Assembly: GCA_031761875.1 (NCBI GenBank)
Contig: CP134492.1
Coordinates: 1,984,001-2,048,000, forward strand
DNA: 64,000 bases
DNA from: Bacillaceae bacterium IKA-2
Lineage (GTDB): Bacteria; Bacillota; Bacilli; Bacillales; Anaerobacillaceae
Reading direction: 5' to 3'
The notes under the pieces were generated by a model. The model worked only from the letters and a program-made list of their open reading frames with translations. It was not told the DNA's origin and ran no database searches. The position numbers and the translations under genes are program-made. Of the stretch, positions 33,355-64,000 are shown one piece after another; positions within the stretch are counted from its first letter, which is position 1, and every line of letters starts with the position of its first letter.

Positions 33355-33376
33355 ATGTCAATCGAAATTTTAATGG

Positions 33377-33476: not shown

Positions 33477-33492
33477 ATACCCTACCTGGTAT
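33477..33492. promoter_or_regulatory. CsoR/CstR-like operator O2, cassette 3
   Basis: ATACC-CTACCT-GGTAT in the leader, as in cassette 2. Confidence 0.65.
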
Positions 33493-33519
33493 TTAAATAA
33501 AATGAACGGGGTGAACGAA

Positions 33520-33996: not shown

Positions 33997-34044
33997 ATAA
34001 ATGAATTTCATGCAATTATAACGTATTAAATAGGAGGAATGAAG

Positions 34045-34614: not shown

Positions 34615-34681
34615 AAATAGAAAAATTAATTTAAAAAAATAAAATTTTTACACGAAATAATACAATTGGGGGTAATTAACA

Positions 34682-35824: not shown

Positions 35825-35836
35825 TGAAATAAGAGA

Positions 35837-35875
35837 GCATTCAAAAAGGTTGAGAAAGACCTTTTTGAATGTTAT
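35837..35875 (+). other. Hairpin between dioxygenase and tusA genes, cassette 3
   Basis: CATTCAAAAAGGT pairs with ACCTTTTTGAATG around a short loop. No T tract. It is followed by about 90 bases absent from cassette 2. Confidence 0.6.
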
Positions 35876-35992
35876 GCACGATAACAGAGTTTACGCTACT
35901 TTTAGCAGGTTTTGCGAAATTCCGCATGAGAAGCGTGTCAATTCTCTTTCGACTAACTAAAAATAAAAAATTAAAATCAGGAGTGATTTATT

Positions 35993-36226
35993 ATGTCAAT
36001 GACAGCAGATAAAGTATTAGATGCAAAGAATTTAGCTTGTCCAATGCCAATCGTCAAAACGAAAAAAGCAATGAATGATCTAGAAAGCGGTCAAGTATTA
36101 GAAATTCATGCAACAGACAAAGGAGCAAAAAATGACCTTACAGCTTGGGCAAAAGCAACTGGTCATGAATTAGTCGCTGACTCTGAAGAAAATGACATCT
36201 TTAAATTTTGGATTAAAAAAGGTTAA
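35993..36226 (+). CDS. TusA-family sulfur carrier protein, cassette 3
   Basis: A 77-residue protein identical to the cassette 2 TusA, with the Cys in LACPMPIVKTKK. CAGGAGTGA precedes the ATG. It closes the duplicated cassette, and a terminator follows 40 bases on, whereas cassette 2 has only a palindromic repeat after its tusA, so read-through from cassette 2 into 3 is possible. Confidence 0.92.
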   Translation: MSMTADKVLDAKNLACPMPIVKTKKAMNDLESGQVLEIHATDKGAKNDLTAWAKATGHELVADSEENDIFKFWIKKG

Positions 36227-36264
36227 CAAAACAATAAAGATTTTTAAATAAATAGTAAGTTTTT

Positions 36265-49962: not shown

Positions 49963-50388
49963 ATGAAAACAACAATAGACTGGACTGGGAAAATGGCTTT
50001 TACGGGAACGACTCCATCAGGACATCAAATTATGATGGATGCGCCACCTGAAGTAGGCGGTGAAAATAAAGCTCCAAGACCAACAGAGTTACTACTTAAT
50101 GCTGTTGCAGGTTGTACGGGAATTGACATCATTTCAATTTTAACAAAAATGCGGGCAATCCCAACATCATTTACAATGGAAGTGGAAGCTGAACGTGCAG
50201 AAGATCATCCGAAGAAAGTAACAAAGCTTCACATTCATTATGTTTTTGAAGGGGATCTTCCAGAAGATAAAGTTGTCCGTGCAATTAAATTATCCAAAGA
50301 TACTTATTGTTCAGTGTCACACTCATTAAGTGCTGAAATTACAGTCAGTTACTCTATTAATGGTAATCGTGGTGAAGAAATTATTTAA
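49963..50388 (+). CDS. OsmC family protein
   Basis: A 141-residue OsmC/YhfA-like protein. The two redox cysteines lie in NAVAGCTGIDI (about residue 52) and DTYCSVSHSL (about 116). OsmC proteins reduce organic hydroperoxides; the YhfA subgroup is less well defined. GGGGTTGAG lies before the ATG. Monocistronic, ended by a terminator at about 50430-50475. Confidence 0.9.
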   Translation: MKTTIDWTGKMAFTGTTPSGHQIMMDAPPEVGGENKAPRPTELLLNAVAGCTGIDIISILTKMRAIPTSFTMEVEAERAEDHPKKVTKLHIHYVFEGDLPEDKVVRAIKLSKDTYCSVSHSLSAEITVSYSINGNRGEEII

Positions 50389-50429
50389 GTCTTTTTTAAT
50401 GTGCGCTTACCATTTAACTTTCAATGAAA

Positions 50430-50475
50430 TAGAAATGGTACTTGTTTTTAAATAAACAGGTATCATTTTTTTTTT
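50430..50475 (+). terminator. Rho-independent terminator after osmC-like gene
   Basis: AATGGTACTTGTTT pairs with AAACAGGTATCATT, followed by T9-10. Confidence 0.85.
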
Positions 50476-50570
50476 TAATTAGTTTATCTGCCAAACCCAA
50501 TTATAGTGAATAGCTTAGCCATTGCAATCATAATTTTAACTAAGTAACTTTAGTTAGGGGGAAGTTTAAT

Positions 50571-50939
50571 ATGCCGATCACTGGTAATGACAGAGAAGAA
50601 ATGGCTAGTCGTCTTAAAGGGAACTGGCGACTTGATGATGGTCATTATGTTGTCCAAATTGAAGATGTAAATATTTGCCCAGTTATTGATGGAAGAAAAC
50701 CTCTTTGTTGGGATTTACTGATTCTTAACTCACAGCGAAAAATCGAAAAATTCCATTGGATTGATAAAAAAGGTGGAGTCTTGATGCTGATTAATGATCT
50801 TCAAAGTTTAGGTTTGGAAATTAATGCAGACAATGCGATAAATGCTTGTAATAGTTTAATTGGATCGAAAATTGAAATTGAAATGAGATCTGATGGCGAA
50901 CATGACAACATTACATTTTTACGAAAAATAATCAACTGA
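50571..50939 (+). CDS. Hypothetical protein, possibly DUF669-like, 122 aa
   Basis: A soluble protein with KGNWRLDDGHYVVQIEDV, LCWDLLILNSQRKIEKFHW and SLIGSKIEIEMRSDG, an order that recalls phage DUF669 proteins (single-strand DNA-binding-like companions of helicases). The match is by pattern only. TTAGGGGGAAG precedes the ATG. Its stop is one base before the helicase start, so the two are translationally coupled, which supports a joint role in DNA processing. Confidence 0.6.
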   Translation: MPITGNDREEMASRLKGNWRLDDGHYVVQIEDVNICPVIDGRKPLCWDLLILNSQRKIEKFHWIDKKGGVLMLINDLQSLGLEINADNAINACNSLIGSKIEIEMRSDGEHDNITFLRKIIN

Positions 50940-50940
50940 A

Positions 50941-52317
50941 ATGGTAGATGTAACAATCACAATGTCAGATAGTCTTTATCTGTCTAAGACATTATCCACT
51001 CAATTTAGGAAAATGATTTTTCAAGAACTAACAATAATAAATCCAGCCTATACAGAAGCGATCCGATTTCAAAGAAGTACAAAAGGAATTGCTCGAGAAA
51101 TTAAACTTTTTCAAGAAACAAAGGATCAGATAAAAATTCCGCGCGGCTACCTATTTCAGTTAATAAAGAAATTAAATGCTAGAAAGATTACTTATCTTTT
51201 CATTGATGAAACGATTGCCAAAGACACTCACTTTCCTAAACCTAATGGAACTCTATTAACGTATCAAAATGATGCAATCTTGAAAGCCCTAAAGTATCGA
51301 CATGGAGTTATTGTTAGTCCGTGTGGTTCTGGTAAAACTGTGATGGGAATTTATTTCATTACTTTAGCTAAACAACGAACATTGTGGATTACACATACAA
51401 AAGATTTACTTTATCAAACAATCGATCAAATCGAAAAATTCTTATCGATTCCGAAAGAAGAAATAGGGATAATTGGCGCTGGAAAAGTTAAAATAGGTGA
51501 AAAAATAACAGTTGGCCTTGTCCAAACTTTAATAAAATTTGATGAGGAGCTTATTAGTAACGGTTTTGGGACAATCATTATTGATGAAGCTCATCGCGTT
51601 CCTAGTAAGACATTTCAGGGAATAGTTGAAAAATCAAAAGCAAAATATCGCTTAGGATTAACGGCAACACCAAAAAGAATTGATGGGTTAGAATCTATTC
51701 TGTTTGGTGTTGTTGGACCAACTATTTTTGAAATTACGGAGAGAGATTTATTAGAAGAAAAGCGGATTTTAATTCCAGAAATAAATAAAATTTTTACTGA
51801 ATTTTACCATCAGGCAACTGATTATCAAAAACTAATCAAGCAATTAGTAACGTGTAAAGAACGTAACAAATTAATCGTGAAGACAATTGTAGAAACGTTA
51901 CAAAAAAATGAAGTTGCTTTATTACTATCAAGTAGAGTAGAGCATTGTCAACTGTTGGCACAGCTAATTACTGCGGAGCTGCCGACCTATCGGATAGAGC
52001 TTCTAACTGGAAAAGTAAAAAGTTTAGAAAGAGAAATGATCATTAATCAAGCTCGAACTGGCGATATCCAGCTCATTATCGCAACACAAGTAGCGGATGA
52101 AGGGTTAGACATTCCTAATTTAAGCAAATTGTATTTAGGAACTCCATCTAAGTCGAAAGCAAAAATAAAACAGCAGTTAGGTAGAATTATGAGAAAAGTA
52201 GATGTTAAAGAAACTTCAAGCGTCTATGATTTTGTCGACCTTAAAATACCTATCTTCCGGCGTCACGCCAATATCCGCAATGTCGTTTATTGTCAACTGG
52301 GCTGTCCAATCTCTTGA
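50941..52317 (+). CDS. DEAD/DEAH-box SF2 helicase, XPB/phage type
   Basis: A 458-residue helicase. Q-like lead-in LLTYQNDAIL, motif I SPCGSGKTVMG near residues 126-136, motif II IIDEAHRVPS, motif III GLTATPKR, motif V IIATQVADEGLDIPN and motif VI KQQLGRIMR are present. The short form without extra domains and the coupling to the upstream 122-residue protein resemble replication-type helicases of phages and mobile elements. ATG 50941 has no separate ribosome site. The last 20 codons may be a replaced end (RRHANIRNVVYCQLGCPIS). Confidence 0.85.
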   Translation: MVDVTITMSDSLYLSKTLSTQFRKMIFQELTIINPAYTEAIRFQRSTKGIAREIKLFQETKDQIKIPRGYLFQLIKKLNARKITYLFIDETIAKDTHFPKPNGTLLTYQNDAILKALKYRHGVIVSPCGSGKTVMGIYFITLAKQRTLWITHTKDLLYQTIDQIEKFLSIPKEEIGIIGAGKVKIGEKITVGLVQTLIKFDEELISNGFGTIIIDEAHRVPSKTFQGIVEKSKAKYRLGLTATPKRIDGLESILFGVVGPTIFEITERDLLEEKRILIPEINKIFTEFYHQATDYQKLIKQLVTCKERNKLIVKTIVETLQKNEVALLLSSRVEHCQLLAQLITAELPTYRIELLTGKVKSLEREMIINQARTGDIQLIIATQVADEGLDIPNLSKLYLGTPSKSKAKIKQQLGRIMRKVDVKETSSVYDFVDLKIPIFRRHANIRNVVYCQLGCPIS

Positions 52318-52417
52318 TTTTCTTCTTTTGTAAACAGAGTGGCGAAAACATCTCGCTTTGGATGTTCAGTGGAATTGAATTTTCCCGCAATGACATGAAC
52401 AAATCAAAAAAAACTCA

Positions 52418-52443
52418 ACAAGTGTCCTCATGGGCACTTGTTG
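52418..52443 (+). other. Hairpin after helicase gene
   Basis: AACAAGTG-TCCTCATGGG-CACTTGTT, a perfect 8-base stem followed by GGGGAC, so not a typical terminator. Confidence 0.6.
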
Positions 52444-52578
52444 GGGACAGAAATCAAAATCACTTATCGAAGTTTTCAATTATTTATTTTAATAAAAGTA
52501 AAATACTTACTAAATTAACAGAAAATTTAGTATAATAAGAAAAGTATTAGTTATTAATCGTTATTAGGGGGAAAAGCA

Positions 52579-53367
52579 ATGGATACCATTATAAATGATA
52601 AGTTAACGGAACTAGATCGAGCGATCAGTCAGTATGTGCGGACGGATACATTCCCCTTGGCCATTACTATTGTGAAGGATGAGACAAAAATACCTAAAAA
52701 AGCAAAGCGGCCATTAAGAGATTTAGGTGTTCGATTTTCGATTTGCCAAGGAATTTCAGTCGCACGAAGGTACGGTTGGACCTTAGCGATGGGAGCCGAA
52801 GATCAGTCCTGTCCAATTGCTAGAATTGCCTTTGGCTTTGAGGAAGAAGTCTCCTTTTACAAAGAAGGAAACTTACCAGAAGGAATGTATACAAAAACAT
52901 GTGAACTAGGCGCAAAAACCGAGTCTGTTGTACCGAAGTTTTCGAAAGAAGAAGCAGGAACCATTTTAATGAGTTCCCTTTCACGAACGAGTTTCAAGCC
53001 AGATATAATTCTTGTTTATGGAAATTCAGCTCAGGTGATGCGGATGGTTGCGGCAGCTTTATACAATGGCGGGGCCGAGATTACCTCGACATTTAGTGCA
53101 AGAGCTGACTGTGCTGATATTGTCATTAAAACATTGCAAACAAAAAAACCACAAGTCATTTTGCCTTGTTATGGAGATCGGGTTTTTGGACAAACGCAAG
53201 ATCACGAAATGGCATTTACACTTCCATATGAGTCGATTGATGATTTTATGGAGGGATTGAAAGGAACACATAAAGGTGGTGTAAGATATCCAATCCCAGT
53301 TTTCTCACGCTATGAGGCTCAGTTCCCACCTACTTATGAAGCATTAAGTCGAATGTTTTCAGAGTAA
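52579..53367 (+). CDS. DUF169 domain protein
   Basis: A 262-residue soluble protein of the DUF169 family, recognised from YVRTDTFPLAITIVKDE, CQGISVARRYGWTLAMGAEDQSCPIAR and LPCYGDRVFGQTQDHEMAF. Many conserved Cys suggest metal or cluster binding, but function is unknown. TTAGGGGGAAAAG precedes the ATG. Monocistronic; palindromic repeat copy 8 follows. Confidence 0.85.
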   Translation: MDTIINDKLTELDRAISQYVRTDTFPLAITIVKDETKIPKKAKRPLRDLGVRFSICQGISVARRYGWTLAMGAEDQSCPIARIAFGFEEEVSFYKEGNLPEGMYTKTCELGAKTESVVPKFSKEEAGTILMSSLSRTSFKPDIILVYGNSAQVMRMVAAALYNGGAEITSTFSARADCADIVIKTLQTKKPQVILPCYGDRVFGQTQDHEMAFTLPYESIDDFMEGLKGTHKGGVRYPIPVFSRYEAQFPPTYEALSRMFSE

Positions 53368-53375
53368 ATATTGGT

Positions 53376-53535
53376 GAATGAATTTCGTCATGCAGTTTCT
53401 GTACCACTAGAATGATATATCTAGTTGAATTAGATTATTTTCAACTAGCCACTAGGAAGCTCAATCTAGTTGAAACAGATTATTTCCAACTAGATTGAGC
53501 CTGATCTGGATAGTTTATTGGTATTAAGAAATATT
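53376..53535. repeat. Palindromic intergenic repeat, copy 8 (double inner hairpin)
   Basis: Family arms are partly degraded (GAATGAATTTCGTCAT). The centre holds two inner hairpins: TATATCTAGTTGAAT... and a second perfect-looking CAATCTAGTTGAAA/TTCCAACTAGATTG. The enlargement parallels copy 6. Confidence 0.8.
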
Positions 53536-53642
53536 GAAGTTGACTAGAAGATAATTTTTTTTTTCAATCATTATCATTGTAAATTTACTGAGGGTATGAT
53601 AGAACTAGAGTGTAGTTACATACTCAAAAATTTAATAGTTCA

Positions 53643-53729
53643 CTACTAGGGGCGCTTTAAAAGCTGAGAGAGACAATTGTCTTAACCCTTATAACCTGAT
53701 CTAGGTCATTCTAGCGTAGGAAAGAAGTG
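53643..53729 (+). promoter_or_regulatory. TPP riboswitch (THI element)
   Basis: ACTAGGGGCGC at the 5' side, GCTGAGAG, AACCCTTATAACCTGATCTAGGTCATTCTAGCGTAGGAAAG-like 3' part (conserved pieces CTGAGA, ACCTGATCT, GCGTAGGAA). This is the complete thiamine pyrophosphate aptamer. It controls the thiZXY operon. Confidence 0.93.
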
Positions 53730-53773
53730 TGGGGAAATGTTATTAGCGTCTAGCTGATAAGGATTTTCATGTA

Positions 53774-53807
53774 TAAACCACTCCTACCTAAATGGAAGTG
53801 GTTTTTT
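53774..53807 (+). terminator. Riboswitch expression-platform terminator
   Basis: AAACCACT pairs with AGTGGTTT, followed by T6, about 45 bases after the aptamer. Thiamine pyrophosphate binding would favour this terminator and stop transcription of the transporter genes. Confidence 0.85.
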
Positions 53808-53914
53808 GTTTTTTTCGAAGCTACCAAGGCGCTTTTCTCTATAATTTATTAGCGAGTAGGTGAATAGAACATGGGTGGTTGCTTGAATAAAGGGATAATA
53901 AGTGGGGCGAGTAA

Positions 53915-54685
53915 ATGACTAGGAAAGCATTGCAATTTGAAGATGTGTCTTTTGCTTATCAAAGTAGTAAGGAACCAAAAGCGATATTGGATAAACTTAA
54001 CTTTTATATTAACGAAGGTGAGTTAGTTAGTATCATCGGCCCGAGCGGATCAGGAAAAAGTACGATTTTCAAATTAATAACCGGACTAGAAAAGCCTTGT
54101 CATGGTCAGATCTTGATTAACGAGGAGCATTATCAGAACCGTTTGGGACGAGTTGGTTATATGCCGCAACAAGATTTACTGATGCCTTGGCGAACAATTA
54201 TTGAAAATGCTGCGCTACCTCTTGAAATCAAAGGGATGACAAAAAAAATGGCTTATCAAAAAGTACTCGAGCTTCTTGATCAATTTGACTTAAAAGAAGC
54301 CCGTGATTTGTATCCTAGCGAGTTATCTGGAGGAATGAAGCAACGAATTTCTTTTTTGAGGACAGTACTGAGTGGTTCTAATGTACTTTTGTTAGATGAA
54401 CCATTTAGTTCCCTCGATGCGATAACGAGACTTTCAATGCAAGAGTGGTTGCTGGGCCAATGGAAAAAATGGAAGTTGTCAATCTTGTTTATTACTCATG
54501 ATGTTGACGAAGCTTTGTTTTTATCAGACCGAGTTTTTGTTTTTACTGAAAATCCCGTACAGCGCTTTGCTGAAATAAAGGTGCCGCTAGGTCGTCCAAG
54601 AGTGATCCGTGATATTCATAGCCCAAAAGTGATTGAAGTTAAGGAACAACTTATTGAACGGCTTCGTACAAGGAGATTAATATGA
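53915..54685 (+). CDS. thiZ: Thiamine-precursor ABC transporter ATP-binding protein
   Basis: A 256-residue ATPase of the nitrate/taurine/pyrimidine class. Walker A GPSGSGKST, Q-loop MPQQDLLMPW, signature LSGGMKQRIS, Walker B VLLLDEPFSSLD, switch His in ITHDVDEA. Position behind a TPP riboswitch and with ThiX/ThiY-like partners indicates uptake of a hydroxymethylpyrimidine precursor (formylaminopyrimidine). GTGGGGCGAG lies before the ATG; it overlaps the permease gene by 4 bases. Confidence 0.92.
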   Translation: MTRKALQFEDVSFAYQSSKEPKAILDKLNFYINEGELVSIIGPSGSGKSTIFKLITGLEKPCHGQILINEEHYQNRLGRVGYMPQQDLLMPWRTIIENAALPLEIKGMTKKMAYQKVLELLDQFDLKEARDLYPSELSGGMKQRISFLRTVLSGSNVLLLDEPFSSLDAITRLSMQEWLLGQWKKWKLSILFITHDVDEALFLSDRVFVFTENPVQRFAEIKVPLGRPRVIRDIHSPKVIEVKEQLIERLRTRRLI

Positions 54686-55434
54686 AGCAATTCAAGAACA
54701 TGATCCCAGCTTTCTTGTTGATACTATTATTTTTGGGAGTCTGGCAAATGGTAGCTAGCTTGATGGCTAAGCCATTTATCTTGCCAACACCAACGCAAGT
54801 AATCATGAAATTATGGGATTTAAAAGAACCTTTATTTCTTGTCCATCTTCCGGCGACGTTACTAATTATTTTAACGGGACTAGCGCTGTCGGTCTTACTA
54901 GGTGTAGGATTAGCCATTTGGATGAATGTTAGTAAACTAGCAGAAAAAGCTTTTTACCCAATTCTAGTTTCTTCACAAACCATTCCAATCATCGCCATTG
55001 CTCCTATTTTTGTGCTCTGGTTTGGCTACTCACTATGGAGTAAAGTAGCTGTTACGTTAATTATCACATTTTTTCCAATTACCGTTAGTACCTTTGACGG
55101 TTTACGTTCCAGTAGCAAAGAATTAAAAGAGTTACTGCAAACGATGGGGGCTAGTAAAAAAGACATCTTTCTTAAATTAAATGTTCCGTCAGCGTTACCT
55201 TACTTTTTTTCTGGCCTAAAAGTAGCTGTTACGCTAAGTGTCATTGGTGCTGCGATTGGTGAATGGTTAGGAGCGCAAAGTGGCTTAGGGTACTTTAGCC
55301 GCCGGATGATGACTCAGTTTGATGCAGCAGGGGTTTTTGCACCAATTGTCTTGTTGTCAGCGATTGGGATTAGCTTATTTTTAGCCGTTGTTATCATCGA
55401 AAAAATAACTTTAAAATGGAGGAAGACAGAGTGA
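54682..55434 (+). CDS. thiX: Thiamine-precursor ABC transporter permease
   Basis: A 250-residue permease with six helices and the EAA loop ELLQTMGASKKDIFLKLNVPSALPYFFSGLKVA (read in parts). ISSQTIPIIAIAPIFVLWFGY-type segment is typical of the family. ATGA overlap with thiZ and GTGA overlap with the thiY start show tight coupling. Confidence 0.92.
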   Translation: MKQFKNMIPAFLLILLFLGVWQMVASLMAKPFILPTPTQVIMKLWDLKEPLFLVHLPATLLIILTGLALSVLLGVGLAIWMNVSKLAEKAFYPILVSSQTIPIIAIAPIFVLWFGYSLWSKVAVTLIITFFPITVSTFDGLRSSSKELKELLQTMGASKKDIFLKLNVPSALPYFFSGLKVAVTLSVIGAAIGEWLGAQSGLGYFSRRMMTQFDAAGVFAPIVLLSAIGISLFLAVVIIEKITLKWRKTE

Positions 55435-56495
55435 AAAAAGCAATTTTTATATTAATTAGCCTAATACTTCTGATTGGGATTACAGCGTGTGGACAAGAAG
55501 AAACGGAAGAAGAAGTAGGAAATTCAAATCAGGAAACAGAAAATGAAGAAAATCAAGGGCAAGAAAAAGATGCAGTTGAAAAAACTGAATTAGCCGAAGT
55601 TGATATTATGTTAGATTGGTATCCAAATGCTGTTCATAGTTACTTATATGCTGCAATTGAAAATGGATATTTTGAGGACGAAGGAATAAAAGTTAATATC
55701 CAATTCCCAGCAAACCCAACAGATCCAATTAACCTTGTGGCAGCAGGGCAAATAACATTAGGAATTTCGTACCAGCCTGATGTTGTTATTGCGCGCGGAA
55801 ATCAAGACGTACCGATTAAAGCTATTGCGGCAATCGTTCGTTCGCCGTTAAATCACACTGTATTTTTAGAAGATAGTGTAATTAATAGCCCAATAGATCT
55901 TGAAGGAAAAACAGTTGGTTACCCGGGAATTCCATTAAACGAAGCGTTAATTAAAACGATGGTGGAAACAGATGGTGGTGATTATGATAAAGTCACGATG
56001 ATTGATGTTGGCTTTGAATTGGGCTCATCTTTAACTACTGAGCGTGTTGATGCCGTCACTGGTGCTTATATCAACCATGAAGTACCTGTTTTAAAGCATA
56101 AAGGTTTTGAGACTCGTTATTTTAATCCTGTTGATTACGGTGTTCCAAGCTTTTATGAATTAGTGATTGTTACTAATGACGATACTTGGAATGAAAGACA
56201 AGCAGATATTGAAGCTTTTTGGCGAGGCGCAACGAAAGGCTATGAATTTATGAAAAACAATCCTGAAGATGCATTAGCAATTTTATTGAGTAATCAAAAC
56301 GAAGCTAATTTTCCACTTGTAGAAGAGGTAGAAACACAAAGCTTAGAAATTCTCCTGCCTAAAATGGAATCAGCTCTTGGTTTTGGCAGTCAAGATGAAG
56401 CAGCTTGGCAAGAGACGGTTGATTGGATGCTTGAGTTAGGGCTTCTTAATCAGGCGCCATCTCTAGACGATATTTTTGTGAATATTGTCAAATAA
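55431..56495 (+). CDS. thiY: Thiamine-precursor-binding lipoprotein, NMT1/THI5 family
   Basis: A 354-residue lipoprotein. Lipobox ITAC closes the signal peptide; a Glu-rich linker follows, then VDIMLDWYPNAVHSYLYAAIENGYF and SPLNHTVFLEDS, hallmarks of ThiY/THI5-like pyrimidine-binding proteins. The start is the GTG at 55431 (8 bases after GGAGG); it overlaps the permease stop. The protein binds N-formyl-4-amino-5-aminomethyl-2-methylpyrimidine in known ThiY. Confidence 0.92.
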   Translation: MKKAIFILISLILLIGITACGQEETEEEVGNSNQETENEENQGQEKDAVEKTELAEVDIMLDWYPNAVHSYLYAAIENGYFEDEGIKVNIQFPANPTDPINLVAAGQITLGISYQPDVVIARGNQDVPIKAIAAIVRSPLNHTVFLEDSVINSPIDLEGKTVGYPGIPLNEALIKTMVETDGGDYDKVTMIDVGFELGSSLTTERVDAVTGAYINHEVPVLKHKGFETRYFNPVDYGVPSFYELVIVTNDDTWNERQADIEAFWRGATKGYEFMKNNPEDALAILLSNQNEANFPLVEEVETQSLEILLPKMESALGFGSQDEAAWQETVDWMLELGLLNQAPSLDDIFVNIVK

Positions 56496-56506
56496 TACTG
56501 TTGTAG

Positions 56507-56540
56507 TAAAAACACTGACCACCTTGGTCGGTGTTTTTTC
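56507..56540 (+). terminator. Rho-independent terminator after thiZXY
   Basis: AAAACACTGACC pairs with GGTCGGTGTTTT, then T2 and CTTTG. Confidence 0.88.
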
Positions 56541-56570
56541 TTTGTAAATGAAAAATCATGACGAGGAGTT

Positions 56571-56633
56571 AGAAAGAACCAGATTATTCAAGGGGTGGTA
56601 TATGATCTTGGTCGGCGCTGGTTCTTTTTTATC
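56571..56633 (+). terminator. Second terminator-like hairpin
   Basis: AAAGAACCAG pairs with CTGGTTCTTT around a 40-base loop, followed by T6. It insulates the next gene from thi transcription. Confidence 0.7.
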
Positions 56634-56662
56634 ATTTTTTTAAAATTAATAAAATAAATTAC

Positions 56663-56691
56663 TTGAATTACCTGACGGGGTATTATACAAT
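56663..56691 (+). promoter_or_regulatory. SigA-type promoter of the HesB-like selenoprotein gene
   Basis: TTGAAT (56663-56668), 17 bases, TACAAT (56686-56691). The spacer is filled by one operator-like dyad. Confidence 0.7.
56668..56683. promoter_or_regulatory. CsoR/CstR-like operator in the promoter spacer
   Basis: TTACC-TGACGG-GGTAT, one base off ATACC-N6-GGTAT, between the -35 and -10 boxes. Confidence 0.6.
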
Positions 56692-56705
56692 GTATTTATA
56701 ATAAA

Positions 56706-56721
56706 ATACCTAACAGGGTAT
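56706..56721. promoter_or_regulatory. CsoR/CstR-like operator after the promoter
   Basis: ATACC-TAACAG-GGTAT, exact dyad, 14 bases after the -10 box and 28 bases before the start codon, the same geometry as O2 in the sulfur cassettes. Confidence 0.65.
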
Positions 56722-56749
56722 TGGAAGTGAATTTTAAGGAGGAATTAAT

Positions 56750-57019
56750 TTGAAGATTACAGATAGTGCAAAAAAACACCTGACAAAAGTTTTTTCTGAA
56801 AATACAGTTTCAAGCTTACGTGTTTTTATAGCAGGCATGGGCTGAGGTGGTCCACAATTAGGTTTGGTTCTGGAAGAACCACAAAAGAGTGACATTATCA
56901 AAGAAATTAACGGGATTAAAGTTTCATTCGAAAACAGGGCAGTAGAATTTGCTGAGCAATTTATACTCGATAGTAAAAACAGTGAGTTTTCTCTAACAAA
57001 CAGTTATAGCAATTGCTAA
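56750..57019 (+). CDS. HesB-like selenoprotein with in-frame UGA (selenocysteine 32)
   Basis: An 89-residue protein if TGA at 56843-56845 is read as selenocysteine. The frame runs KITDSAKKHLTKVF, then VFIAGMG-U-GGPQLGLVLEE, the spot where HesB/IscA proteins have their first conserved Cys, and goes on to a normal TAA; the C-terminus SNC keeps a second Cys. A bacterial SECIS-like hairpin follows: stem TGGTTC/GAACCA with loop TGGAA at 56871-56875, the loop G lying 26 bases after the TGA. HesB-related selenoproteins are a known family (TIGR01911 type). The start is TTG 56750 after AAGGAGG. It probably handles Fe-S or persulfide sulfur. Operators upstream link it to the sulfur cassettes. Confidence 0.85.
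56846..56887 (+). promoter_or_regulatory. Candidate bacterial SECIS element
   Basis: Stem bases 56865-56870 (TGGTTC) pair with 56876-56881 (GAACCA), extended below by TT/AA past a bulged C. The 5-base loop TGGAA has G in second and third position, as bacterial SelB-binding SECIS loops require a G at the first or second place, 16-37 bases from the UGA. Confidence 0.7.
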
Positions 57020-57231
57020 AATTAACTTAATTAGTGCTGTTTACCAAATTGGTAAGCAGCACTTTTGATTTTTGGTGTGATATTATATAGAAGAGGGAAG
57101 CTATTATCTAACAGTTCCAAAAGATTAGAAAAATAAAATGAATTGCAAAAAAATAAGTCTTTTTAGTTGAAATTAATTTAAGGAAAAGTATAGTGTTAAG
57201 TAGTAGTATGTTTACAAAGGTGGGAGGAAAC

Positions 57232-57870
57232 ATGACTAACTTTACAAATGTAGAAAAGTTCCCTTACGTTACGTATCCCGATGATAGGCTTCTTTTTCAG
57301 TTTGGAAAAACTGATTGGGAGTTAGATTTAAAAGATCGTAAAACACAGCAAAAAAGAAGCTTTTTTGATCGAATTATTGGTTTTGACCCAAACAAACCAA
57401 TTAAAAGAACGAGTTTTTTTGATATTGTTGACGAGGATGAGCACTTTTATCATTGTATTATTGGCTTTCGTGACGATGTTTCAGGTCAATTTACGTATAC
57501 CTTACTTTGTAAAGAAAGTGATCCTGCAAATAATATTTTTTGTGCTTTTGATGATGGACTTGTCTTGGTATCAAAAAAAGCATTTTTGGAAGCTTCGAAA
57601 CAAAATAGTGAAGCAGATTTTATGATGGGAATTATTGAGGAAAGTGCTCTTTGTAATGGAGCAAAGATTAATTCTGAAGATCAGTTAGAAAAAGGTAAAT
57701 TGAAGGATAAGTATAAAATATCATTAACAAGAAAAAGACAGCTTGTAGTAAATGGTTATCATTATGCATTTATTGCCTCAAGCTACGCGCTCTTGTATGG
57801 ATTTGATGGCTATGACGACTTTATGACCGGTCATGATATGATTGATGTTGATACTGGCGGTATGTTCTAA
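57232..57870 (+). CDS. Hypothetical protein, 212 aa
   Basis: An acidic soluble protein I do not recognise. KFPYVTYPDDRLLFQFGKTDWELDLKD opens the chain, and aromatic/Asp-rich segments (FFDIVDEDEHFYHCIIGFRDD, GYDDFMTGHDMIDVD) recur. There is no signal or membrane helix. ATG 57232 follows GGGAGGA; an in-frame GTG at 57193 has no ribosome site. Convergent with the glutamine-rich gene. Confidence 0.7.
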   Translation: MTNFTNVEKFPYVTYPDDRLLFQFGKTDWELDLKDRKTQQKRSFFDRIIGFDPNKPIKRTSFFDIVDEDEHFYHCIIGFRDDVSGQFTYTLLCKESDPANNIFCAFDDGLVLVSKKAFLEASKQNSEADFMMGIIEESALCNGAKINSEDQLEKGKLKDKYKISLTRKRQLVVNGYHYAFIASSYALLYGFDGYDDFMTGHDMIDVDTGGMF

Positions 57871-57883
57871 AAATTTTAGAAAA

Positions 57884-57914
57884 GCTACGAGAAACCTCTA
57901 GAGTTACTCGCAGC
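57884..57914. terminator. Hairpin between convergent genes
   Basis: AGCTACGAG pairs with CTCGCAGCT (one mismatch) around an inner CCTCTAGAG-type loop; no T tract. Confidence 0.45.
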
Positions 57915-57924
57915 TCAATAATTA

Positions 57925-58209
57925 CTATTGCTGGTTTGGACGATTTTGTTGCTGTTGTTGCTGTTGTGCCTGTTGAAGCTGTTGGGTCGCTTGCTGAATT
58001 TGTTGAGTTGCTTGCTGCAACTGTTGTTGTTGTTGTGGTGACGACTGTTGTGTAGCTTGGTCAATTTGTTGCTTAGCTTGTTGTAATTGTTGCTGTACTT
58101 GTGCTAATTGTTGTGGATCAGCTTGTTGCTGTGCTTGCTGCATCGCTTGCTCTGCCTGTTGAATTGCTTGCTGCGCTTGCTGAATTTGTTGTTGGTTTTG
58201 TTGTGTCAT
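57925..58209 (-). CDS. Glutamine-rich low-complexity protein, 94 aa
   Basis: More than half of the residues are Gln, with Ala next (QQAQQAIQQAEQAMQQAQQQ and similar), plus two short breaks at ADPQQ and SSPQQ. The DNA avoids a pure CAG/CAA run by mixing codons, so it is a maintained coding sequence. Heptad-like spacing of Ile/Leu/Ala suggests a coiled coil. Gln-rich small proteins occur among bacillar spore-coat and transglutaminase substrates, but nothing here proves that role. AAGGGTGA lies 9 bases before ATG 58209. Confidence 0.7.
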   Translation of the reverse strand: MTQQNQQQIQQAQQAIQQAEQAMQQAQQQADPQQLAQVQQQLQQAKQQIDQATQQSSPQQQQQLQQATQQIQQATQQLQQAQQQQQQQNRPNQQ

Positions 58210-58419
58210 AATCATCATCACCCTTAAAATTAGTTTGCCTAACAGTGATGTTCAAAAAGTTAGCTAATCAAAGTTTGTGAATCACTTCATTAGCTGTACT
58301 TATCCTTCTTAGAACACCTGCCAATAAGACAACAAGTTTAATTTGTGATAAAAACCGCTTTTTTATGTAATGAAAGATTTTTTAAAAAAAAACCAATGAA
58401 TTGGTTTGGGGGGAAAAAG

Positions 58420-58728
58420 ATGAGTAAATTAGATTTACAGACATTTTTTGAAGAGAAAGTTGGAAATGCAAAAAATCAATTTGAACGAACAATTGAATGT
58501 AAACACATCGAATTTGATGATCTTTATCCATATATGAGTGAGCAACCTCAATTTTTTTGGTACAAACGATATGTGGCTTGGCAAGAGTTAATGACAGTCA
58601 TTAAACTTTCAGAAGAGCTAGGTGAAAATTGGAGTAATGCTTTTTCAGCTAAACAAATTAAGTATATCAATGCAAAAGTGTTAGATGCCAAAGTTCTTGA
58701 TGATTGGTATGATACACCAGAAAAATAG
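58420..58728 (+). CDS. Hypothetical protein, 102 aa
   Basis: A small acidic, helix-rich protein (DLQTFFEEKVGNAKNQFERTIECKH, WQELMTVIKLSEELG) not assigned to a family. ATG 58420 follows TTTGGGGGGAAAA, and a clear terminator comes after. A longer in-frame reading from 58345 passes through an inverted repeat (AAACCAATGAATTGGTTT) and is unlikely. Confidence 0.65.
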   Translation: MSKLDLQTFFEEKVGNAKNQFERTIECKHIEFDDLYPYMSEQPQFFWYKRYVAWQELMTVIKLSEELGENWSNAFSAKQIKYINAKVLDAKVLDDWYDTPEK

Positions 58729-58748
58729 CTATAGCTAAAATAGTTGTG

Positions 58749-58790
58749 AGCATTAAGACAATAAAATGTCTTAGTGCTTTTTATTTTTTG
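58749..58790 (+). terminator. Rho-independent terminator
   Basis: AGCATTAAGACA pairs with TGTCTTAGTGCT, then TTTTATTTTTT. Confidence 0.85.
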
Positions 58791-58853
58791 TGATAAACTA
58801 AACTACTAATTGAATAATATTATAAAAAAGGAAATCAACAAGGAGATGCTACT

Positions 58854-59288
58854 TTGGATAAAGAAAAATTAAGATTACAGTTTGAGAAAGCACTAGAAAC
58901 TCACGAGGATGGGACAGGAAATTTATTTTTTTACTCACTTTTAGATTTCACGTTTGATTATCACACAGATCGAGAAGTTGTTAGTATTGAAGTACCGATT
59001 TCTAGTTTAATGTATAACCCAATAGGATTTATCCATGGAGGTATTTTTACATATATAGCTGATACTGCAATGGGGCATTTATGTGCAGCTTTTGCGGATC
59101 AACCTGGAGTTTCCCTAGAACTTAAAACACAATTTTTAAAGACCGCAAAAACAGGAACATTGTTTGCAGAAGCCTACTTCTTAAAGAAGGGGAAAAATAT
59201 TCAGTTTATTGAATGCGTGATTAAAGACGAACAAAAGCAAGTACTAACGAAAACAACAGCAACATTTTATTCAATCCACCAAAAATAA
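58854..59288 (+). CDS. PaaI-type hotdog thioesterase
   Basis: A 144-residue acyl-CoA thioesterase of the PaaI/YdiI group. The helix start NPIGFIHGGIFTYIADTAMG carries the HGG motif; SLELKTQFLKTAKTGTLFAEA is the central strand pair. Substrate unknown. TTG start 58854 after AAGGAGAT. Monocistronic. Confidence 0.87.
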   Translation: MDKEKLRLQFEKALETHEDGTGNLFFYSLLDFTFDYHTDREVVSIEVPISSLMYNPIGFIHGGIFTYIADTAMGHLCAAFADQPGVSLELKTQFLKTAKTGTLFAEAYFLKKGKNIQFIECVIKDEQKQVLTKTTATFYSIHQK

Positions 59289-59372
59289 TCATCGTTTATC
59301 TACAATTAGGTTCATCTTCCTTTTTATCTTTCATAAACATCATTTATGAGTGCTTATAAAATAGGAGGCTGA

Positions 59373-60668
59373 ATGATCATGCAGATACATGTTGTTCAAA
59401 CGGAGGAAACGCTTTGGCGAATTGCACAAGTTTATAATTCAACAGGTGAAGAAATTGCCAGTGCTAACAAACTAACTGATCCAGAGCGTTTAGTAGTTGG
59501 TCAGGCGCTGGTCATACCAATTGTAGGAAGCTTTTATTTTGTCCAGCCAGGGGATAATTTATGGTCAATTGGTCAAAAATTTGGAATTAATTACGTAACA
59601 ATTGCCCAATTAAATCAGCTTGATCCGAGTCAACCATTAGTAGTAGGTTTGAGACTGTATATTCCACCACAACCAAAACAAAGCGTTGAAACAAATGCCT
59701 ATATCGAGCCAAGAGGTACAACAGTGAGTGAAAATTTACTTAATCAAGCAAGATCAGCAGGACCATATTTAACCTATCTGGCTCCATTCAGTTATGAGGC
59801 AAGGAGAGATGGATCACTTGACGCACAACCGCTCAATGGGATACCAGAAGTAGCTGAAGAAACAGGTGCTTCATTAATGATGGTTGTAACGAACCTTGAA
59901 GAAGGTGAATTCAGTGGGGAACTAGGAAGGGATATTCTTCAAAGCGTTGCTGTTCAAGACTTGCTCATAGACAGTATTATTGCGGAAACGAGACGTGTGA
60001 CCAAATATACCGATGTTCATTTTGATTTTGAATTTTTGCCTGTTGACCAGCGAGAAGCCTATAATAATTTTCTGAGACGTGCAGCAGGAAAATTAAGAGC
60101 AGAGGGTTTATTAATATCAAGTGCATTGGCGCCAAAAACACGTCGCGACCAGCCAGGTCAGTGGTACGAAGCACATGATTATCGAGCACATGGAGAAATC
60201 GTCGACTTTGTAGTTCTGATGACATACGAGTGGGGCTATTCTGGAGGACCACCTATGGCCGTTTCACCAATTGGGCCAGTTGAGGAAGTGATCCAATATG
60301 CATTAACTGAGATGCCTGCTTCCAAAATAATGATGGGACAAAATTTATACGGTTATGATTGGACATTACCATTTGTTCCTGGAGGCCCTTATGCAAAAGC
60401 GGTAAGTCCGCAAAGAGCGATTGAAATTGCCAAACAATATAATGTTCCAATCCAATATGATAACCAAGTTCAAGCTCCCCATTTTGATTACGTTGATGAA
60501 GAAGGAGCAGCTCACAAAGTCTGGTTTGAAGATGCGAGATCAATCCAAGCAAAATTTGACCTAATCAAACGTCTAGAGCTGCGCGGGATAAGCTATTGGA
60601 AATTAGGCTTACCATTCCCGCAAAACTGGCTACTAATTGATGAGAATTTTGATGTTGTAAAACGTTAA
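59373..60668 (+). CDS. sleL: LysM-GH18 spore cortex-lytic enzyme, SleL/YaaH-like
   Basis: A 431-residue protein with two N-terminal LysM domains (IHVVQTEETLWRIAQVY to LVIPI; YFVQPGDNLWSIGQKF to LYIPP) and a C-terminal glycosyl hydrolase 18 domain. The GH18 catalytic motif is DVHFDFEFLP with the terminal Glu as acid. SleL is an N-acetylglucosaminidase that trims cortex fragments during germination. No classical signal peptide, as in SleL. Start at ATG 59373 or 59379, both close to TAGGAGG. Confidence 0.92.
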   Translation: MIMQIHVVQTEETLWRIAQVYNSTGEEIASANKLTDPERLVVGQALVIPIVGSFYFVQPGDNLWSIGQKFGINYVTIAQLNQLDPSQPLVVGLRLYIPPQPKQSVETNAYIEPRGTTVSENLLNQARSAGPYLTYLAPFSYEARRDGSLDAQPLNGIPEVAEETGASLMMVVTNLEEGEFSGELGRDILQSVAVQDLLIDSIIAETRRVTKYTDVHFDFEFLPVDQREAYNNFLRRAAGKLRAEGLLISSALAPKTRRDQPGQWYEAHDYRAHGEIVDFVVLMTYEWGYSGGPPMAVSPIGPVEEVIQYALTEMPASKIMMGQNLYGYDWTLPFVPGGPYAKAVSPQRAIEIAKQYNVPIQYDNQVQAPHFDYVDEEGAAHKVWFEDARSIQAKFDLIKRLELRGISYWKLGLPFPQNWLLIDENFDVVKR

Positions 60669-60693
60669 AAAAATAAATTAGTTATTTAGTTGA

Positions 60694-60773
60694 GTGAATT
60701 TCACAATACCAATAAATTAGCCATATCAAGCTATATCTAGTTGTATCTAGTAATTGAAATCATGAAATTCACT
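60694..60773. repeat. Palindromic intergenic repeat, copy 9 (reverse orientation, shortened)
   Basis: GTGAATTTCACAATACCAAT then AAATTAGCCATATCAAGCTATATCTAGTTG, i.e. the right half of the family inverted, ending in CATGAAATTCAC. The other half is reduced. Confidence 0.75.
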
Positions 60774-60793
60774 TAAGTAATTCGATTTTAATA

Positions 60794-60830
60794 AAAAAAG
60801 ATAGGAGCAATCACTCCTATCTTTTTTTGT
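60794..60830 (+). terminator. Rho-independent terminator after sleL-like gene
   Basis: AAAAAAGATAGGAG pairs with CTCCTATCTTTTTT around CAATCA. Confidence 0.93.
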
Positions 60831-61030
60831 GTCGATATTTAAGTTCAGAAATTGATTTGGCGGATAAATCACTAATTTGGTAAATAATCTTTATAAAACT
60901 TTTAAAACTATCATTTTATTTATTAATCTTATTATTCTGATAAAATTAAATGCTATTGCATAATTACAGTGAAAGTTTACAATGAAAATACAAATGTTTT
61001 TTCTAGAAACACAAAAGGAGGATAACTAAA

Positions 61031-62167
61031 TTGAAATTAGTATTAAAATTAATCGCTGGAATTGTAATCGGAATCATTTTAGGACTTATTGCACCTGACT
61101 TTCTTATTCGCTTACTTGTTACAATCAAAGTTGTATTTGGAAGTTTTATCGGATTTATCATACCATTAATTATTTTATTTTTTATTGCAAGTGGGGTTGG
61201 AGGTTTAGGGAAGAAATCCGGACGTCTAGTCGGGACGACAGTTGGGCTTTCCTATTTATTTACTGTCATTGCCGGATTACTAGCATTTGTTATTTCAATT
61301 ACAGTGATCCCGTTTACTTCACCAGAACAAGCTGGTATTGCTGAGGGAACTTCATTTGAACCATTTTTAAGATTAGAAATAACACCAATTATGGGAGTTG
61401 TTACAGCGCTTGTTGCAGCATTTTTATTTGGAATCGGGATGGCGAAAACAGAGAGTAAGACGTTGAAAGTTGTTTTTGATGAAGGGAAAAACATTATTGA
61501 TTTAGTTATTGCAAAAATTATTATTCCATTTTTACCAATCTATATCGCAACTATTTTTGCTGAATTAGCAGGAGAAGGAACAGTATTTGGAACATTAAAA
61601 GTATTTGGTGTCGTGTTAGTTCTGGCGATAGTAACACATTGGATTTGGTTAATTGTTCAATACGTTGCAGCAGGTGTTGTTAGTGGAAAAAATCCTTTCA
61701 TGCTCTTGAAAAATATGATGCCGGCTTATTTCACGGCAATCGGAACAATGAGTAGTGCTGCGACTATTCCCGTAACGCTTCGTTCAGTTAAACAGAACAA
61801 AGTAAAAGATGAAATCGCGGATTTTGGAGTACCTCTATGTGCGACGATTCATTTATCAGGTAGTGTGATTACAATTGTTACTTGTACGGTGGCAGTAATG
61901 TTGTTAACTCCTGAGCTACCACAACCAACATTGATGATGATGTTACCGGTTATTTTCATGCTTGGCCTAATTATGGTTGCAGCACCAGGCGTTCCTGGTG
62001 GTGCCATCATGGCGGCGCTAGGAATTTTGACAACAATGCTTGGTTTTGGTGAAGCAACAATCGGTTTGATGATTGCTCTTTACATGGCCCAAGATAGTTT
62101 TGGAACAGCAGCAAATGTTACTGGTGATGGTGCTATTAATGTGATTGTTGATAAACTGAGACTCTAA
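61031..62167 (+). CDS. Dicarboxylate/amino acid:cation symporter (DAACS family)
   Basis: A 378-residue symporter related to GltP/GltPh/DctA. PLIILFFIASGVGGLGKKSGRL, the Ser-rich hairpin MSSAATIPVTLRSVK and the tip AAPGVPGGAIMAAL are family signatures; AQDSFGTAANVTGDGA is the substrate/Na+ site region, here with Ala where other members have Arg or Cys, so it may prefer neutral or aromatic amino acids. Start TTG 61031 after AAAGGAGG. Ended by a strong terminator. Confidence 0.9.
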   Translation: MKLVLKLIAGIVIGIILGLIAPDFLIRLLVTIKVVFGSFIGFIIPLIILFFIASGVGGLGKKSGRLVGTTVGLSYLFTVIAGLLAFVISITVIPFTSPEQAGIAEGTSFEPFLRLEITPIMGVVTALVAAFLFGIGMAKTESKTLKVVFDEGKNIIDLVIAKIIIPFLPIYIATIFAELAGEGTVFGTLKVFGVVLVLAIVTHWIWLIVQYVAAGVVSGKNPFMLLKNMMPAYFTAIGTMSSAATIPVTLRSVKQNKVKDEIADFGVPLCATIHLSGSVITIVTCTVAVMLLTPELPQPTLMMMLPVIFMLGLIMVAAPGVPGGAIMAALGILTTMLGFGEATIGLMIALYMAQDSFGTAANVTGDGAINVIVDKLRL

Positions 62168-62182
62168 ACTAAAGATATATTT

Positions 62183-62216
62183 TTTTGAAAAAACCCCCTG
62201 AAATGGGGGTTTTTCT
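62183..62216 (+). terminator. Rho-independent terminator after DAACS gene
   Basis: AAAAACCCCC-TGAAAT-GGGGGTTTTT. Confidence 0.93.
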
Positions 62217-62234
62217 AGTTAATGGAGGCTAATC

Positions 62235-62272
62235 GAGGACAAACAAGAGACCGGCACTCCTGAATTGTCCTC
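62235..62272. other. Intergenic hairpin
   Basis: GAGGACAA (62235-62242) pairs with TTGTCCTC (62265-62272), both flanked by ATCGA-like bases. Function unknown; no T tract. Confidence 0.45.
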
Positions 62273-62421
62273 AATCGAGGTGCATGAAGACAAAATTGAA
62301 ACATGTTTTTTTCATTACCCAAGTCTTTCAAATAGTATATATTTAGAGAGTAATGATAAAATTTAGGCAAGAGAAATTTATCATTTTTATAAAAGTGTGT
62401 TCATAAAGGTGGGGAGAACTT

Positions 62422-63294
62422 TTGAAAATACGGTGGGTCCAATTTATCGGAATCGTTTCTTGTTTTTTGTGTGTTATATGGCTAATCGGGTTTGGACTAG
62501 CATTTACTAATTATTTTTATAAAGGAACGACAACAGTCAGTCAACTAGATGTTGTCAGCGATGAAGAAATATTTGAAGAAGCTGAACAAGGGGAATTTGA
62601 GATAAATGAGCATGGTAACGCTGAGAAAGGTGAAATTAACCTAGAAAACTCTGAAACTAGTTTTCTTGTCGTCGCTTTAGGAGATTCTCTGACAGTAGGA
62701 ATGGGCGATGCTGAAGGCAAAGGGTATGTTGGTAATGTTATCGATGACCTTCATGAACGAAAAATTAAAGATATTCATTTAGAGAACCTTGGAGTTAATG
62801 GGCTTACCTCTAATGGGCTTTTGGAGATAGTGAGCCAACCAGATGTTGAAGAGCAGATCAAGCAAGCTAAACTGATTTTGCTTACGATCGGTGGAAATGA
62901 TCTATTTCAAAGTGGACAAACACTTATCAACGTAAATCGGGAAGAAATCGATTTACTTGAACAAGCATATCTGGAAAATATTAAGCAAATCTTCACTCAA
63001 ATTCGTGCCTTAAATATAGAAGCGCCTATATATTTAAGTGGTCTTTATAACCCATTCATTGAATTTTCAGAGTCTCAAATTACTTCGGAAATTATTGTCG
63101 ATTGGAATTACAAAACGGCGCTAGAGGTTGGGAAATATTCAAAAGCAATATTTGTACCTACTTTTGATTTGTTTCAACTAAATGTAAATGATTTTTTAGC
63201 TGAGGACCGATTTCATCCGAATACAAATGGTTATGAACAAATGGCACTACGAATTGTCTCACTTTTGGCATGGGTAGGTGATGATCAATCATGA
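62422..63294 (+). CDS. GDSL/SGNH-family lipase-esterase, membrane-anchored
   Basis: A 290-residue protein with an N-terminal membrane helix (VSCFLCVIWLIGFGLAF), an acidic linker, and an SGNH hydrolase domain: VVALGDSLTVGMGD (Ser nucleophile), the block III GGNDLF, and EDRFHPNTNGYEQMA (catalytic Asp-His). It resembles YpmR/LipSM-like bacillar proteins on the outer face. TTG start 62422 follows GGTGGGGAGA. It overlaps the next ABC ATPase by four bases (ATGA), so the two form an operon, perhaps with a permease beyond the window. Confidence 0.88.
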   Translation: MKIRWVQFIGIVSCFLCVIWLIGFGLAFTNYFYKGTTTVSQLDVVSDEEIFEEAEQGEFEINEHGNAEKGEINLENSETSFLVVALGDSLTVGMGDAEGKGYVGNVIDDLHERKIKDIHLENLGVNGLTSNGLLEIVSQPDVEEQIKQAKLILLTIGGNDLFQSGQTLINVNREEIDLLEQAYLENIKQIFTQIRALNIEAPIYLSGLYNPFIEFSESQITSEIIVDWNYKTALEVGKYSKAIFVPTFDLFQLNVNDFLAEDRFHPNTNGYEQMALRIVSLLAWVGDDQS

Positions 63295-64000
63295 ATGAAG
63301 TGACTTTAACTGTAAGGGGTTTGAAAAAAAGAATTGACGGTAAGGAAATTATCAAAGGAATCGATTTCGAACTTAATAAAGGTGAAATTTTTGGTTTTTT
63401 AGGCCCGAATGGTTCTGGAAAAACAACGACTATTAGGATGATCGTCGGACTTATTAAACCTACTGAAGGAACAATTGAAATATGTGGTCATGATGTCCAA
63501 AAGAATTTCACAAAAGCTATGGAGCAGATTGGCTGTATTGTCGAAAATCCGGAACTATATCCGTACTTATCTGGTCGCGAAAATTTAAAGCTTTTTTCAG
63601 GGATGATGAAAGGGATCAAAAATGAGAGGATTAAAGAAGTTGTTGAACTAGTCGGGTTATCAGAGCGGATTGATGATAAAGTAAAAACCTATTCTCTTGG
63701 GATGCGGCAAAGATTAGGAATTGCCCAAGCGCTTCTTGGAAGCCCTAAAATTCTTATTTTGGATGAGCCGACAAACGGTTTAGACCCATCAGGAATTCGT
63801 GAAATGCGTGAATTTATAAAATATTTAGCTAGAAATGAAGGAATAAGTGTATTTATATCTAGTCATATGTTAAGTGAAATTCAATTAATGTGTGATAGAG
63901 TAGCGATTATTTCAAAAGGAAAAGTTCTTCAAGTTGGGGAAGTGAAAACACTACTTTCACAACAAGAGCAACTTCTCTGGGATATATCACCGATAGAGGT
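63291..64000 (+). CDS. ABC transporter ATP-binding protein (BcrA type), 3' end beyond window
   Basis: At least 236 residues before the window ends. Walker A GPNGSGKTT, Q-loop VENPELYPYLSG, signature YSLGMRQRLGIAQ, Walker B ILILDEPTNGLDPSG and switch His in SSHMLSE are intact. The Gln-to-Glu change in the Q-loop and the SLGMRQR signature are typical of bacitracin/lantibiotic-type exporter ATPases. It overlaps the GDSL gene by 4 bases. No stop codon is reached. Confidence 0.9.
   Translation, partial: MNEVTLTVRGLKKRIDGKEIIKGIDFELNKGEIFGFLGPNGSGKTTTIRMIVGLIKPTEGTIEICGHDVQKNFTKAMEQIGCIVENPELYPYLSGRENLKLFSGMMKGIKNERIKEVVELVGLSERIDDKVKTYSLGMRQRLGIAQALLGSPKILILDEPTNGLDPSGIREMREFIKYLARNEGISVFISSHMLSEIQLMCDRVAIISKGKVLQVGEVKTLLSQQEQLLWDISPIE

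Follow-up and report, generated by a model that had tools for sequence, protein, structure and literature searches.

A short gene on the forward strand at positions 56750 to 57019 of the window (the whole 64,000-nucleotide stretch analysed here, G000:C1:1984001-2048000 of a 4.42 Mb genome in a single contig) is almost certainly decoded with selenocysteine (Sec), as far as sequence can settle the matter. Its promoter carries two putative operators of a kind also seen before sulfane-sulfur genes, other HesB-like genes and CstR-type regulator genes of related genomes. Together, these data suggest that Sec decoding and control by a CstR-type repressor are probably combined in this gene.

The reading frame begins with TTG at 56750, seven bases 3' of a ribosome-binding site that can be read directly as AAGGAGG (56736–56742, + strand), and ends with TAA at 57017–57019. 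It comprises 89 codons with the UGA counted, and this in-frame UGA (codon 32; 56843–56845, + strand) is the sole earlier stop. Alignment with genuine Cys rows places the UGA at the Cys position of HesB/IscA relatives (GMG-U-GGPQLGL), so that the window gene has its Sec codon at the first Cys of HesB/IscA, within the motif UxGP. This confirms what had been read from the letters alone, namely a frame of this length with a good ribosome site, open except for one TGA at a conserved HesB/IscA Cys. The reading frame, profile matches and comparison with homologues all point to a HesB-like selenoprotein of 89 residues with Sec32. Two close orthologues (L029 and L030), about 52–53% identical to the window gene, start with ATG at the same place as its TTG. 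Sequence scans found terminator-like hairpins on both sides (56508–56538 on the 5' side; 57033–57063, + strand, on the 3' side), so the gene looks monocistronic, a predicted single-gene transcript. An ABC transporter gene set ends just 5' of it and is preceded by a TPP riboswitch at 53638–53739 (76.7 bits, gathering score 54.3).

In profile searches, the window gene product matched NF038090 (IscA_HesB_Se; E 3.8e-12, 46.4 bits against a curated cut-off of 85), TIGR01911 (HesB_rel_seleno; E 1.6e-9, 38.3 bits against 66.35), TIGR00049 (E 1.3e-8, below its curated cut-off) and Pfam Fe-S_biosyn (5.3e-5, 23.8 bits against a gathering score of 26.3). The comparison with TIGR01911 that the sequence-only reading had proposed therefore gives a match, but one short of the curated cut-off. 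A search of the genome with TIGR01911 returned three places, all under the cut-off, among them a second HesB-like gene with one TGA (C1:837134) and a HesB-like form without a stop (C1:3781721). A better-conserved HesB paralogue also stays under both cut-offs, scoring 55.9 with TIGR01911 and 57.1 with NF038090. Given its scores, we class the window gene as a variant of HesB-like selenoproteins and not as a member of TIGR01911; by sequence, it is a divergent HesB-like paralogue under NCBI's cut-offs. For the same reason, annotation likely misses or splits the gene.

The predicted model of the window protein (pLDDT 89.4) has the IscA fold. A fold search with this model gave IscA 1r94 as the best PDB match (E 9.4e-7), followed by 2d2a (1.9e-4), and also returned 2k4z, DsrR of Allochromatium vinosum (E 5.4e-4), an IscA-like protein of sulfur oxidation. 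The fold alignment covered 12 of 14 loci, L080 and L084 being excluded. The three Cys ligands of IscA are residues 35, 99 and 101, and Sec of the window protein sits at the first of these, Cys35. The C-terminus reads SNC, SSC and SNC in the window protein and the two orthologues, with one Cys where relatives have a pair. Sec32 and Cys89 are the only thiol or selenol ligand candidates in the window protein, short of the three-Cys set of IscA.

The Sec-decoding trait (selA, selB, selC, selD) is complete in the genome. Profile searches found selA (558.9 bits, cut-off 267.9) and selB (336.9 bits, cut-off 242.25), tRNA-Sec scores 58.7 against a gathering score of 47 and is also called as tRNA-SeC by ARAGORN, and two selD genes exceed the cut-off, each with one in-frame TGA of its own (G000:C1:2448136-2449065, L023; 3632932-3633849, L024). 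The sequence-only reading had named the absence of these genes, or unrelated sequence past the TGA in sister strains, as grounds against a selenoprotein. In fact, selA, selB, tRNA-Sec and two selD genes were found. All 10 matches in seven genomes of the genus have one in-frame TGA each and are conserved past it, with invariant alignment columns up to the last Cys. A DsbA-family frame near the selA-selD-selB genes (L012:14658-15356; PF01323, 2.3e-41) has a possible Sec in a U-P-F-C motif.

We compared homologues with and without UGA to evaluate the hairpin on the 3' side of the codon. Ten proteins from the genus were searched against 397 genomes of the order; 222 matched, with UGA and stop-free forms intermingled. 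The 113 homologues used (L028-L030, the 30 loci L087-L116 and 80 further loci) are high-scoring matches among those listed and not a random sample. All of them could be placed by a position rule for the Sec-site codon, which is UGA in 73, Cys in 36 and Glu in four; the Glu forms (L177, L183, L184 and L185) make up one clade of family f39. The UGA is accompanied by a hairpin on its 3' side.

In the window gene, the candidate SECIS hairpin UGGUUC-UGGAA-GAACCA occupies 56865–56881 (+ strand), with a stem of 56865–56870 paired to 56876–56881 and the loop UGGAA at 56871–56875. The stem starts at the 20th base from the UGA and the loop at the 26th; the sequence-only reading had described a hairpin with a five-base, G-containing loop 26 bases past the TGA. 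Nine codons past the UGA, at +25 to +27, Leu is encoded by CUG in all 73 UGA homologues and in two of the 40 others (Fisher p 4.5e-28, computed on sequences that are not independent). Leu has six codons and CUG is kept only with a UGA upstream, so constraint on the protein hardly explains it. The loop is UGGN in 73/73 UGA homologues (UGGAU in 66), while UGG stands in the loop position of 6/40 non-UGA homologues. All five inner stem pairs can form in 66/73 UGA homologues and in 0/40 of the rest. The two homologues with CUG past a Cys codon, L122 (CUGGACCAG) and L132 (CUGGAGGAA), may carry remnants of a lost SECIS.

The stem also covaries. In the UGA group, 96.7% of cells in distinct rows are paired, two-sided changes occur at four of the six pairs, and the covariation score is 0.249, whereas shuffles give 0.103 and slid structures no more than 0.043. 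The Cys/Glu group gave no stem signal, with 35.5% of cells paired and a covariation score of 0.110 (0.109 shuffled). The stem version of the window gene (GGUUC/GAACC) recurs among the 73 only in the orthologue L029. Folding energy did not single out the hairpin: the 45 nt from the UGA have z = -0.34 and a different best structure, and when three such 45-nt pieces were folded, the hairpin appeared in the best structure of orthologue L030 only. An Rfam search of positions 50000–64000 gave no SECIS-type match and only the TPP riboswitch above its gathering score. It is therefore the contrast between homologues with and without UGA that supports the SECIS assignment. The fold check suggested earlier thus failed on energy, while the hairpin itself gained comparative support from the loop (73/73) and from covariation. 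By this comparison, the hairpin past the UGA is a SECIS element. The presence of the Sec genes, the CUG and UGGN loop in every UGA homologue and the covariation strongly support what had been read as a probable selenoprotein.

Upstream of the gene, a consensus scan picked out a sigma-70-type promoter-like site, TTGAAT-17-TACAAT (56663–56691, + strand), which with 9/12 matches is a lead only. As the sequence-only reading had claimed, two CsoR/CstR-like dyads were found in this promoter region. Dyad 1, with the core TTACC-N6-GGTAT, lies between the promoter hexamers at 56667–56684 and has one mismatch to AATACCN6GGTATT, and dyad 2 (AATACC-N6-GGTATT, exact) lies between the promoter and the ribosome site at 56705–56722. 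The exact dyad is at −44 in the window gene, at −44 in L029 and at −39 in L030. A scan of the window for the dyad with up to two mismatches gave 11 places, compared to 3.34 expected, and 11 was reached by none of 100 shuffles.

The 16-base form ATACCN6GGTAT has 12 exact sites in the genome, against one for a reversed control. A looser 14-base dyad pattern was dropped (61 sites, 52 for the reversed control). Within the window, the dyad recurs around a sulfane-sulfur gene cluster on the + strand at 24789–36226 (TusA-rhodanese, DsrE-like, rhodanese/MBL, SulP, carbonic-anhydrase-like, DsrE2 and TusA genes; three identified by Pfam and the rest by eye), exactly at 27074, 30426 and 33477 and with one mismatch at 24607, 30357 and 33406. 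Two other one-mismatch dyads in the window, at 22269 and 37766, fall within frames unrelated to the cluster. The cluster includes tandem copies of a sulfur operon with dyads (30181–33217 and 33230–36230), in which 2817 of 2937 aligned bases are identical.

The targets of the exact dyads are scattered over the genome. They include two DsrE2 genes, SulP, a CoA-disulfide reductase, a thioredoxin reductase (trxB), the window HesB-like gene, a VKOR-family gene with two sites, an SBF-family transporter and a CitMHS-family transporter; of the remaining exact dyads, one falls within a LarA-like frame and another is next to a racemase/nitroreductase pair that has no evident sulfur link. The SulP, LarA-like and second DsrE2 targets were identified by eye, and the CoA-disulfide reductase scores 433 bits with TIGR03385 against a cut-off of 578.8, its frame being clipped by the end of the locus. 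Fe-S assembly genes did not appear among the targets of these 12 exact genomic dyads. A putative operator common to the window gene and to sulfane-sulfur genes was therefore found.

In relatives (G004, G006, G296 and G357), the dyad is kept before DsrE, SulP, CoA-disulfide reductase with rhodanese, TrxR, SBF and VKOR-family genes, identified by eye except at L254, L256 and L260 (Pfam). Sites compared to reversed sites numbered 10/3 in G006, 3/1 in G005, 18/1 in G296 and 12/1 in G357; the dyad is barely enriched in G004 (7/5) and not enriched in G257 (3/9). A double dyad precedes a VKOR-family membrane protein gene in two genera (G000:C1:1659144-1659189, L063; L254:2295-2340).

With one mismatch allowed in ten bases, the dyad was found within 250 nt upstream of 9/113 HesB-like homologues, where it starts 35 to 44 nt before the first codon. 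These nine comprise three genes of the window's own genus, four of f26 and two of f36, and thus span three families. Shuffled upstream stretches contained such a dyad in 9/1130 cases, and 29 other half-site arrangements reached 3/113 at best, spacers other than six bases giving no more than three. All nine are UGA homologues (9/73, compared to 0/40 of the others; Fisher p 0.025, with rows that are not independent). At up to one mismatch, no dyad precedes the remaining 64 of the 73 UGA homologues, one of which is the genome's second HesB selenoprotein (L092), so control through the dyad cannot be a rule of the family. L093 has an odd start, and its upstream stretch is shifted. A tree of the 113 proteins (93 columns, with many unresolved forks), used for this count only, requires at least three changes of the dyad label, or two when only well-supported branches count.

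We next considered which repressor might bind the dyad. The genome encodes two PF02583 proteins, P0002 and P0003. Two Cys are a trait of the CstR-like repressor YrkD, according to the part of PMC9918477 that describes it. With two Cys and without the CsoR His, P0002 is CstR-type, and P0003 has the His and is CsoR-type; residues were read by eye, using the fingerprint that separates CstR from CsoR. A search with P0002 in 22 genomes listed 49 matches, 30 of them with loci. L208 and L226 were left out of the count of regulator genes, giving 28 usable loci that were separated by eye into 25 CstR-type and three CsoR-type, with approximate start codons. Among these, 12/25 CstR-type genes and 0/3 CsoR-type genes have a dyad with up to one mismatch in their upstream 300 nt; several of the 12 are near-copies, so they do not count as 12 independent cases. 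No dyad was present in the stretch scanned at the P0002 gene itself, or within 300 nt of its four closest relatives (L203-L206), so autoregulation was not seen here.

Three of the four CsoR-type genes looked at (P0003, at −45, L223 and L231; loci L059, L223 and L231) are preceded by a similar dyad in which the half-sites stand 7 bases apart, not 6. The half-site thus appears common to both repressor types, with only the spacer setting them apart, and in these bacteria the spacing may distinguish targets of CsoR from those of CstR. The literature passages used gave no CstR operator of a Gram-positive bacterium; the oligonucleotide tested for the Thermus relative (PMC10318464) has these half-sites 2 bases apart. 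CstR controls rhodaneses and a CoA persulfide reductase in E. faecalis, per the account of its regulon in PMC9405070. In B. licheniformis, the CstR-like repressor YrkD controls a DsrE/TusA/rhodanese cluster and no longer binds its sites after treatment with elemental sulfur, as the relevant part of PMC9918477 states. The cluster at 24789–36226 holds gene kinds like those in YrkD- and CstR-controlled clusters. Based on these patterns, a CstR-type repressor likely controls the window gene, and we infer that CstR is the bound protein. The earlier guess that the selenoprotein belongs to a sulfane-sulfur regulon has gained independent support from a dyad that appears common to sulfane-sulfur, CstR-type and other HesB genes.

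We propose the following explanation. Decoding would follow the ordinary bacterial route, with the UGA at codon 32 and a SECIS hairpin 20–36 nt downstream read by SelB. Two operators would span the promoter and bind a CstR/YrkD-type repressor, which would leave the DNA once persulfides or polysulfides modify its two cysteines. The released promoter would then allow the selenoprotein to be made alongside DsrE/TusA/rhodanese proteins, SulP, CoA-disulfide reductase and thioredoxin reductase. The Sec32 selenol could take up or reduce sulfane sulfur, with Cys89 as the likely resolving partner, and electrons or sulfur could pass to thioredoxin or to the TusA/rhodanese systems. With one Cys left of the C-terminal pair, the products of the window gene and its two orthologues are easier to reconcile with a Sec-Cys redox pair than with a cluster site of three ligands. 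We put forward, tentatively and with the chemistry presumed, a role of the window selenoprotein in persulfide handling. Equally tentative is the idea that proteins of this HesB subgroup would serve specifically as selenol-based enzymes or carriers for sulfane sulfur, with the persulfide sensor CstR controlling their induction.

Other explanations were weighed against this proposal. A real stop at the UGA, leaving a decaying gene or a 31-residue peptide, is what the default table 11 reading gives, and the hairpin does not reach significance in folding energy. However, the Sec machinery (selA, selB, tRNA-Sec, selD) is complete, the 10 genus matches all have the TGA and conserve the sequence past it, and the CUG and loop are invariant in 73/73 UGA homologues; we rejected a stop or pseudogene as extremely improbable. 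Alternatively, the gene could encode a selenoprotein whose dyads belong to another repressor, such as the CsoR-type copper sensor P0003, which would make the link to sulfur indirect. The genome does have two PF02583 proteins, its CstR-type gene P0002 lacks the dyad, and P0003 has the half-sites, with a 7-base spacer, at −45. Nevertheless, the 6-base form occurs at CstR-type genes (12/25) and not at CsoR-type genes (0/3), three of four CsoR-type genes have the 7-base form, and most genes preceded by the 6-base form are sulfur or thiol-redox genes, which makes assignment to another repressor quite unlikely.

The main rival to a persulfide role is an A-type Fe-S carrier with Sec as a cluster ligand, in which case regulation by sulfur would reflect Fe-S damage and repair under persulfide stress. 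The IscA fold, the matches to Fe-S_biosyn and TIGR00049, and Sec at the position of Cys35, the first IscA Cys, are all consistent with such a carrier. The single C-terminal Cys (SNC, SSC, SNC) leaves the three-ligand set of IscA incomplete, and none of the 12 dyad targets was seen to be an Fe-S assembly gene. We consider a Sec-ligated carrier possible but unlikely, and retain the tentative proposal of persulfide handling.

The HesB-like selenoprotein family is already known and is listed with the other prokaryotic selenoprotein families. Table 1 of PMC1794560 has 11 such proteins and Table 1 of PMC13188914 gives their motif as UxGP, in agreement with the earlier statement that HesB-related selenoproteins of the TIGR01911 type exist. 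A paper on selenate reduction by Anaerobacillus (PMC11944866) mentions selenoproteins twice, once in the introduction and once in the references. Among the open-licence papers listed by full-text searches, judged by title and the start of the abstract, no link of a selenoprotein to CstR or to persulfide was found. What appears to be new is a divergent, probably unannotated HesB copy and a predicted operator link to the sulfane-sulfur regulon. An operator that ties some HesB-like selenoproteins to a persulfide-sensing regulon would make the function of the family directly testable. If the proposal is true, selenocysteine chemistry would have been recruited to persulfide detoxification or trafficking, giving a role to a long-known and functionally open selenoprotein family.

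The window protein resembles the HesB-like selenoproteins of TIGR01911 and NF038090 in having Sec at the first HesB/IscA Cys, UxGP, a downstream SECIS and about 90 residues, but differs in scoring under the cut-offs, in having one C-terminal Cys instead of CC and in the two CstR-type dyads of its promoter. The HesB-like selenoprotein of Methanococcus maripaludis was found by mutagenesis and 75Se labelling, and its function is described as not clear; decoding there is archaeal, and the passages of PMC11097638 on this protein describe no such operator. The A-type carriers IscA and SufA have the same fold (1r94, 2d2a), whereas the window protein has Sec for Cys and one C-terminal Cys. The CstR regulons of S. 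aureus and E. faecalis and the YrkD regulon of B. licheniformis have similar targets, namely rhodaneses, CoA persulfide reductase, DsrE and TusA; the passages of PMC9405070 and PMC9918477 on these regulons do not mention a selenoprotein, and the putative targets here, the window selenoprotein gene among them, are dispersed around the genome.
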